From the NCBI RefSeq assembly GCF_000702605.1, contig NZ_JNIR01000001.1, positions 2,036,501 through 2,100,500 of the forward strand: a stretch of DNA of 64,000 nt. Reading direction: 5' to 3'. Every line of letters begins with the position of its first letter. Positions within the stretch are counted from its first letter, which is position 1. Shown piece after piece: positions 63,546-64,000 of the stretch. A model generated the notes under the pieces. That model was not told the DNA's origin and did no database searches. It saw nothing but the letters and a program-made list of their open reading frames with translations. The DNA is from Exiguobacterium acetylicum DSM 20416 (GTDB taxonomy: Bacteria > Bacillota > Bacilli > Exiguobacteriales > Exiguobacteriaceae). Made by a program: the position numbers and the translations under genes.

Positions 63546-63575
63546 AAAAAAGGTCACGGAACGAGTCCGTGACCT
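63546..63575 (-). terminator. terminator of the flagellin locus at the right edge
   Basis: AGGTCACGG-ACTCGTT-CCGTGACCT followed by TTTT on the minus strand, about 27 nt past the second flagellin stop. It implies that the intron-like RNA and the downstream flagellin end are part of one transcript ending here. Confidence 0.9.
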
Positions 63576-63601: not shown

Positions 63602-63646
63602 TTAACGGAGTAATTGGAGAACGCCTTGCGGCTGTTGGTTCGCTTG
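63602..63646 (-). CDS. flagellin 3' exon (second copy of the coding end)
   Basis: On the minus strand CAA GCG AAC CAA CAG CCG CAA GGC GTT CTC CAA TTA CTC CGT TAA encodes QANQQPQGVLQLLR, the C-terminus of Bacillales flagellins. It has no start of its own. The codon before it reads TAG and lies in the intron-like RNA, so it can be translated only after splicing, or it is a remnant. It differs from the copy at 63971-64000 at 5 of the 30 shared bases, all synonymous, which suggests both have been under coding selection. Confidence 0.75.
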   Translation of the reverse strand, partial: QANQQPQGVLQLLR

Positions 63647-63970
63647 CTACGCGCATTAGCTTTCGCTAATGATAAGACTATATCTTCATCCTTGAAATCC
63701 AAGGAGCTGGGCACTTCCCCCGCCGTTTACGGAGTACGGATTTCATAACCATCGGACAAGTCCATTAGGTCGTCTATCCTAGTCGTTGAACCTTCACCAA
63801 GGTTTCCCTACAGGTGCTTGGCTGCTGATTGTCCAATCCTTGATATTTTTCAGAACGGTCACGCTCGCTGTTTCCAGCCACGTTGTCGTACACCAAGGCT
63901 CTCAGGAGTTCCAGCAATTCACCCAGTCATGTTCTAATCCGTTACCAGATTAGACGCCCGGTAGAATCAA
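63647..63970 (-). ncRNA. group I self-splicing intron (core)
   Basis: The four conserved group I core elements appear in order on the minus strand: P (GAATTGCTGG, 63920-63911), Q (AATCAGCAGC, 63830-63821), R (GGTTCAACGACTA, ending 63780) and S (AAGATATAGTC, 63686-63676). P7 pairs GACTA (63784-63780) with TAGTC (63680-63676); P4 pairs GCTG with CAGC; a P2 hairpin TCTAATC..GATTAGA lies at 63954-63933; a P9 hairpin CATTAGC-GAAA-GCTAATG follows S. The last intron base is probably the G at 63647 (GTAG then CAAGCG). The 5' splice site is unresolved and may lie beyond 64000. No homing endonuclease gene is inside. Confidence 0.85.
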
Positions 63971-64000
63971 TTATCGAAGGAGTTGGAGAACGCCCTGCGG
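63971..64000 (-). CDS. flagellin, 3' end (partial, continues beyond the window)
   Basis: On the minus strand CCG CAG GGC GTT CTC CAA CTC CTT CGA TAA gives PQGVLQLLR and a stop at 63973-63971, the end of a flagellin gene that begins to the right of the window. It is separate from the flagellin at 56651. Immediately after its stop comes the intron-like RNA. If the 5' splice site lies upstream of this segment, these codons belong to the intron and serve only the unspliced mRNA. Confidence 0.8.
   Translation of the reverse strand, partial: PQGVLQLLR

Follow-up and report, generated by a model that had tools for sequence, protein, structure and literature searches.

Geobacillus stearothermophilus and thermophilic Bacillus have been reported to carry group I introns in their flagellin genes (Hayakawa and Ishizuka 2009, 2012, as cited in PMC3984707 and PMC4853749), and these introns are described as self-splicing, of group IA2 and temperature dependent (PMC4853749). 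It is argued in PMC3984707 that few bacterial protein genes hold self-splicing introns because translation interferes with the ribozyme, and the same review describes phage and bacterial group I introns with an in-frame stop near their start; one may add, as a further reason for such rarity, that failed splicing gives a broken protein. The subject of this work is a group I intron in the flagellin gene of Exiguobacterium acetylicum DSM 20416, found at the right edge of a stretch of 64,000 nucleotides of its genome (the window), which carries a recoded spare copy of the end of the protein.

The nearest relatives in idea seem to be hybrid genes and introns of fungal mitochondria, such as atp6 of Allomyces and Glomus (PMC3630166) and the Tremella introns with duplications of the host gene (PMC7315562). 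As these sources present them, a mobile element associated with a LAGLIDADG gene arrives together with a diverged copy of the downstream coding end, a trait shared with the locus described here. The fungal copies, however, span tens to hundreds of bases and the endonuclease lies inside the element, whereas here a 45-nt cassette is found in the P1 element of a short ribozyme; in several fungal cases the native end is unexpressed or the element has ceased to be an intron, whereas here both ends are under selection, as judged from their substitutions. With the thermophile introns (PMC3984707, PMC4853749) the present one shares its class, its host gene and the phylum Bacillota. It also resembles the phage and bacterial introns of PMC3984707 in its early in-frame stop, which here lies just before the internal guide; in those introns the stop alone leads to a truncated product, whereas the frame read here up to the stop makes the protein complete. 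Searches of the open-licence full-text literature brought up no bacterial group I intron described as having a C-terminal copy or a tag like that of transfer-messenger RNA (tmRNA), and prior notice elsewhere is possible.

The flagellin gene and its intron

The right edge of the window falls inside the 3' end of a flagellin gene on the minus strand. The locus fetched beyond the edge (L003, in which window position equals L003 position plus 62999) holds a single intact flagellin open reading frame (ORF; L003 972-2171, 399 amino acids, domains Flagellin_N and Flagellin_C), which terminates in QSNQTPQGVLQLLR-stop and is followed, in minus-strand order, by an intron core, a second ending QANQQPQGVLQLLR-stop, a terminator-like hairpin, flaG and fliD. 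The elements of the region, all on the minus strand, are as follows.

63971-64000, minus: C-terminal copy QSNQTPQGVLQLLR-stop, the portion inside the window (complete copy 64015-63971, stop 63973-63971), from the in-frame reading and selection on homologues
63964-63970, minus: UUGAUUC, the 3' side of the P1 extension, whose partner is GAAUCAG in codons 2-4 of the copy (64010-64004, beyond the window edge), from covariation and the minimum-energy fold
63956-63959, minus: internal guide GGGC, opposite exon GCU (64018-64016) and the first intron base, C (64015), with U.G at the splice site; placed before P2
63933-63954, minus: P2 hairpin, UCUAAUC...GAUUAGA, from the fold and by eye
63676-63684, minus: S element GAUAUAGUC (P7 3' strand), from the letters and the Rfam match; it underlies the pattern of the species-wide scan
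63654-63974, minus: RF00028 match, group I core (Rfam, 79.8 bits)
63647-64000, minus: in-window part of the group I intron, from the empty site in intronless congeners and homologous introns
63602-63646, minus: native 3' exon QANQQPQGVLQLLR-stop, from the letters; identical codons run unbroken in intronless congeners
63551-63575, minus: terminator-like hairpin followed by a T run (L003 576-552), from a hairpin scan

The Rfam group I model RF00028 matches the minus strand at 63974-63654 with 79.8 bits (cut-off 50; E 1.2e-18) over model positions 1-253 of 253, and this match at flagellin is the only one in the genome. In the alignment the R element is separated from P3' by an insertion of 64 bases, which suggests subgroup IA with extra P7.1/P7.2. 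The insertion point lies between Ala and Gln, 14 codons before the flagellin end (AMLA/QANQQPQGVLQLLR). Five of the 19 genomes of the genus lack the intron and have continuous codons at the site (CTTGCA/CAAGCAAACCAACAGCCG in G008, for example); because they read straight through, the splice sites can be placed at GGCU/CAAUCG (5', at 64016/64015, outside the window) and GUAG/CAAGCG (3', at 63647/63646), giving an intron of 369 nt whose first 15 nt (64015-64001) lie outside the window and whose last base is G (63647). On this comparison the 3' version of the ending is the native exon and the 5' version is part of the intron. A splice site within GGCGU/UCUCC would allow P1 to form a longer pairing with the guide, but it was rejected, since homology to the native exon begins exactly at CAA and the empty sites agree.

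The copy comprises 14 codons and a stop (64015-63971), that is, the first 45 nt of the intron, and is in frame with the flagellin exon. An earlier note, made from the letters of the window alone, had proposed a group I core between PQGVLQLLR-stop at the edge (stop 63973-63971) and QANQQPQGVLQLLR-stop (63646-63602) with a terminator behind, and all these parts were recovered on the minus strand, the core by the full-length Rfam match. Its view of the first ending as a synonymously recoded copy holds in part: the synonymous spellings it quoted for copy and native (CTC/TTA, CTT/CTC, CGA/CGT) are correct, but two of the 14 residues differ (QSNQT vs QANQQ). It had also expected, to the right of position 64000, a 5' splice site with a U pairing to the guide near CGGGCG. 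The extended sequence places such a site inside the intact flagellin gene, with exon GCU facing GGGC at 63959-63956, though through three exon base pairs only.

The terminator-like hairpin (63575-63551) is the sole one in L003 400-1100, where the shuffled region averages 0.6 such sites. The same scan of L003 400-1100 gave no terminator-like hairpin between the stop of the copy and the intron core.

Distribution of the copy

The intron occurs in 14 of the 19 genomes of the genus, this one included, and each of the 14 has the copy. The intron of the window shares 343 of 372 aligned positions with that of Exiguobacterium antarcticum (L061) and 341 of 371 with that of Exiguobacterium sp. KRL4 (L063), which are themselves identical to introns of two of the genus genomes. 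In the sister genus, six of 19 genomes have an RF00028 match over the cut-off in flagellin at the same position, each with a copy; weaker RF00028 matches were seen there in what looks, by eye, like a tRNA gene (e.g. L045-L047, L052, L053). Some group I match, in many different genes, is present in 94 of 398 genomes of the class.

A wider sample was obtained by searching one genome from each species for a P7 3' strand with a flagellin end behind it, a pattern that did not require the copy and that returned at least 117 stretches. The scan matches listed, together with the loci of the genus, of the sister genus and of the RF00028 survey of the class, gave 140 rows after removal of exactly identical introns. 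Twenty were set aside: nine reaching the locus end (L057 and eight others), five remnants without a flagellin gene in front (L060, L090, L103, L105, L171), four of another intron lineage (L058, L116, L141, L162) and two with intact genes followed by relics (L065, L170). The remaining 120 are distinct introns of Bacillota at this site, readable through the 5' end. At least 30 genus names besides Exiguobacterium are represented among them.

An in-frame copy was found in 117 of these 120 introns, always of 14 codons, and the bases at the splice sites are constant, the 5' exon ending in T and the intron in G in 120/120. None of the 117 copies is identical to its own native exon, from which it differs at 8-19 of 42 bases (median 13). 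Two introns titled Anoxybacillus (L084, L095) share the site and the copy, so the thermophile introns of Hayakawa and Ishizuka may belong to the same family.

The loci set aside as relics are of two kinds. In L065 and L170 the flagellin gene is intact and has a stop of its own, and an orphan core and a flagellin 3' exon lie downstream of it; in L060, L090, L103, L105 and L171 a core or remnant and a flagellin 3' exon are present, but no flagellin gene precedes them.

Selection on the copy

Selection was assessed on 90 representatives of the 116 introns that have both a 14-residue copy and a native exon, by the proportions of nonsynonymous (pN) and synonymous (pS) differences. The copy is, by these measures, under selection at the protein level: its pN/pS is 0.243 (0.135 for residues 8-14), and the same bases give 0.91 and 3.38 in the two shifted frames. 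The native exon is likewise constrained, with a pN/pS of 0.130 (0.212 for residues 8-14). Within the genus, the 14 copies have a pS of 0.344 and a pN of 0.000, with zero amino acid changes.

The copy also follows the particular ending of its host. The last residue agrees with that of the host flagellin in 85 of 90 cases vs 67.4 in shuffles, and residue 8 in 86 of 90 vs 66.4; in neither case was the observed value attained in 20000 shuffles (0/20000). Hosts that end in Gln or Gly instead of Arg are matched by the last residue of the copy in 10/10, and hosts without the usual Gly at residue 8 in 10/14; five copies differ at residue 14 from a host ending in Arg. Gene conversion as the source of this match was not supported: at synonymous sites copy and native diverge to a similar degree whether they come from one genome (0.779) or from different ones (0.795), and selection is therefore favoured over conversion. 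Copies and natives differ near the start of the peptide, with Ser at residue 2 in 59 of 92 copies vs 1 of 92 natives and Met or Leu at residue 5 in 50 of 92 vs 2 of 92 (counts that still contain L065 and L170).

The structure of P1

The guide faces three exon bases and one intron base (GCU and C against GGGC), with which it would form three exon pairs and one intron pair. The GGGC guide is present in 76 of 92 introns examined; of the 16 without it, most clostridial ones read GGGUC, which by eye is able to pair with GGCUC. P1 is extended by pairing between codons 2-4 of the copy and the bases between the stop of the copy and the guide. Among the 76 GGGC introns this extension covaries: own partners score 13.65 vs 11.35 for swapped ones, a value attained in 0/300 shuffles, and the best stems make up 47 different sequence pairs, whose registers are not all equal. 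The rest of the copy, including its most conserved residues 8-14, is placed in the P1 loop, and there, outside the stem, pS is 0.70 and pN 0.095. In 111 of 117 introns a distance of 7-12 nt separates the stop of the copy from the guide that follows. For the P1 region of the window, the minimum-energy fold shows the extension and P2; 8/200 shuffles fold equally well.

A model for the intron and its alternatives

On this evidence the intron probably carries a recoded cassette by which full flagellin would be made from either unspliced or spliced messenger RNA (mRNA), so that failure of splicing would be harmless. The sequence itself shows where the group I intron is inserted (at the Ala/Gln boundary, with 14 codons of flagellin still to come), its anatomy, the in-frame copy, selection at the protein level on both copy and native exon, and the covarying extension of P1, whose loop houses a recoded cassette of 14 codons and a stop. 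In the proposed scheme, before splicing, or without it, ribosomes would run from the exon into the intron and complete a flagellin ending QSNQTPQGVLQLLR; after splicing they would read the native exon and end QANQQPQGVLQLLR. Since either mRNA would yield a full C-terminus, failed or delayed splicing would make no truncated flagellin, and since the stop lies directly before the internal guide, ribosomes would leave ahead of the ribozyme core. Flagellin needs its C-terminal helix for assembly. We infer that the intron is spliced in the cell, that unspliced mRNA is translated and that the two ends are functionally equivalent. The recoding itself may be explained by the pairing in P1, and perhaps also by a need to shield the junction of exon and copy against a homing endonuclease and against recombination.

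Several observations weigh against this scheme. A good copy is absent from three of the 120 introns: L075 has a stop at codon 1 and another within, L080 reads QFEQIAA and L207 QFEQVA. No copy equals the native peptide (0/117), so the two products are never identical. The native exon at 63602-63646 and its homologues in the genus are nearly without synonymous change (pS 0.030 among 14 congeners), and the shuffles and pN/pS values ignore the relatedness of the introns. Regarding structure, the exon part of P1 in the Bacilli is short, at three pairs, the extension is of 3 bp or fewer in three of the 76 introns (L042, L044, L107), and the minimum-energy fold of the P1 region of the window pairs exon GCUCA with a later stretch and not with the guide. 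Finally, the scan demanded an intact native exon and the exact P7 strand, so introns with a decayed exon were missed.

That no copy equals the native peptide is also what an isoform switch would give, in which the QSNQT and QANQQ endings differ in function and splicing, perhaps by temperature, chooses between them. The preference of the copies for Ser at residue 2 and for Met or Leu at residue 5 fits such a switch, as does the temperature-dependent splicing reported second hand for thermophile flagellin introns (PMC4853749). The most divergent residues, 2-5, however, lie in or beside the P1 stem, and residues 7-14 mostly match the host, as expected if function must be equal; a switch is thus considered unlikely. 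Another possibility is that the intron is never spliced, the copy having replaced the native ending as in fungal mitochondrial hybrid genes, with the downstream exon left as a relic. The seven relic-like loci listed above (L065, L170, L060, L090, L103, L105, L171) and the native ends described in PMC3630166 as not expressed in Glomus atp6 and cox2 speak for it; on the other side, the core in the window scores at full length over the Rfam cut-off, the splice-site U and G are kept in 120/120, and the native exon has a pN/pS of 0.130 over the 90 representatives, a point weakened by a search pattern that favoured intact native exons. We regard this explanation as decidedly unlikely.

If splicing were always complete, the copy could be RNA structure only, serving as P1 extension and loop, and its likeness to protein would be due to chance. 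Codons 2-4 do form a covarying stem, but the most conserved residues lie in the loop outside it, where synonymous sites are free to vary, the signal is lost in shifted frames and the copy tracks host-specific endings, all of which makes this account very improbable. The earlier note had offered as its alternative two tandem flagellin genes, the second reduced to an intron and a 3' exon. Several flagellin genes do occur in relatives (e.g. L260), but the gene on the right proved to be one intact flagellin that holds the predicted 5' splice site, no promoter-like site was seen in L003 400-1100, no 5' half of a second flagellin lies between the intact gene and the native 3' end, the identical arrangement recurs at the same codon in 117 introns and congeners have empty sites; the idea is scarcely credible and was abandoned. 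The reading which that note gave first, an insertion silent even when splicing fails, appears largely right in view of the empty site, the copy in 117 of 120 introns, the protein-level selection and the P1 pairing. The locus holds a real intron with a conserved spare ending, which most likely makes splicing optional for the production of flagellin.

A second intron site and endings in AA

Many of the same genes contain a second flagellin intron 23 codons upstream, between DVD and MAKEMM and 37 codons before the stop (e.g. in relatives L195-L205, L212 and L215); it was not seen among the 14 introns of this genus. Pairs of RF00028 matches about 450 bp apart are explained by these two insertion sites in one gene, and stacking of introns by serial insertion at one site was rejected. 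Read through without splicing, the frame at the upstream site ends YALAA-stop or similar, with AA in 42 of 43 introns and VA in one, a count that leaves out four rows without a located 5' end. Each of the four Ala codons occurs at the final position (GCT 19, GCG 11, GCA 7, GCC 6), and the AA endings look as if the unspliced product were selected there too; base pairing around the stop may add an RNA constraint.

This ending resembles a tmRNA tag. The tag of E. coli tmRNA ends YALAA, and the tmRNA gene of this genome, at 376-734 of the window, encodes GKTNTQLAAA according to ARAGORN. Similar endings were read elsewhere. The four introns of the other lineage (L058, L116, L141, L162), located about one codon upstream of the first site, read by hand ML-EVLAA, DEMAA, EVLAA and EGLAA before a stop, and of the three copy-less introns at the first site one ends in AA (L080) and one in VA (L207). 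Introns in three non-flagellin genes (L193, L225, L231), perhaps of phage tape-measure type as guessed from the letters, also have an unspliced frame ending in AA. An AA ending as a general habit of group I introns was rejected: among 37 non-flagellin introns lying behind a frame of at least 90 codons, drawn from 90 class-survey matches that were read (17 of the 90 could not be classed), just five end in AA or VA.

The endonuclease gene beside flagellin

The 369-nt intron contains no endonuclease ORF, and this genome has no relative of the LAGLIDADG_2 endonuclease. A free-standing LAGLIDADG_2 gene (PF03161) is present beside the flagellin gene in other intron-bearing genomes of the genus, intact in six of 14 and in pieces in a seventh; it is absent from the other seven, this one included, and from all five intronless genomes. 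The gene converges on flagellin and, in the six intact cases, its end lies within 45 nt of the 3' exon, with a 4-nt overlap in L015. In the sister genus it adjoins the intron in four of six genomes and is in pieces in a fifth, and it is also found beside intronless flagellin genes in five genomes (broken in one), so the endonuclease gene does not require the intron. In the other family examined, PF03161 occurs in eight of 61 genomes, in five of them at 0.5-2.6 kb from a flagellin intron. The LAGLIDADG_2 loci are L008, L010, L014-L017, L039 and L042, and L259-L263.

The junction between exon and copy nearly recreates the uninterrupted gene; if the endonuclease cuts this rebuilt junction, the copy would have to be respelled. 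Three of the intronless flagellin genes beside the endonuclease in the sister genus (L260, L261, L262) end in QSNQQPQAVLQLLR, which looks like a chimera of copy and native. As a lead only, such endings may reflect intron loss by recombination between the copy and the native exon.

Implications

A joint reading of both sites is held with slightly better than even confidence: flagellin introns of Bacillota would have evolved two opposite ways of handling the product of unspliced mRNA. Those close to the gene end would complete flagellin through a recoded cassette in the P1 loop, those upstream would append a tmRNA-like ..ALAA tag and direct the truncated flagellin to proteolysis of the ClpXP type, and recoding would also guard the exon-copy junction against cutting by the free-standing homing endonuclease of the family, which would leave the intron nearly invisible to both host and endonuclease. 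With the spare ending, the intron appears to solve both problems that such elements face in bacterial protein genes, since its reading frame closes ahead of the core and a full protein would result with or without splicing. The locus thereby lets selection on the product of unspliced bacterial mRNA, usually left aside, become a testable question. If the reading is true, annotations in which a gene finder closes flagellin at the cassette would conceal the intron as well as the real final exon in many genomes, and introns that do no harm when they stay unspliced could be designed after the cassette.
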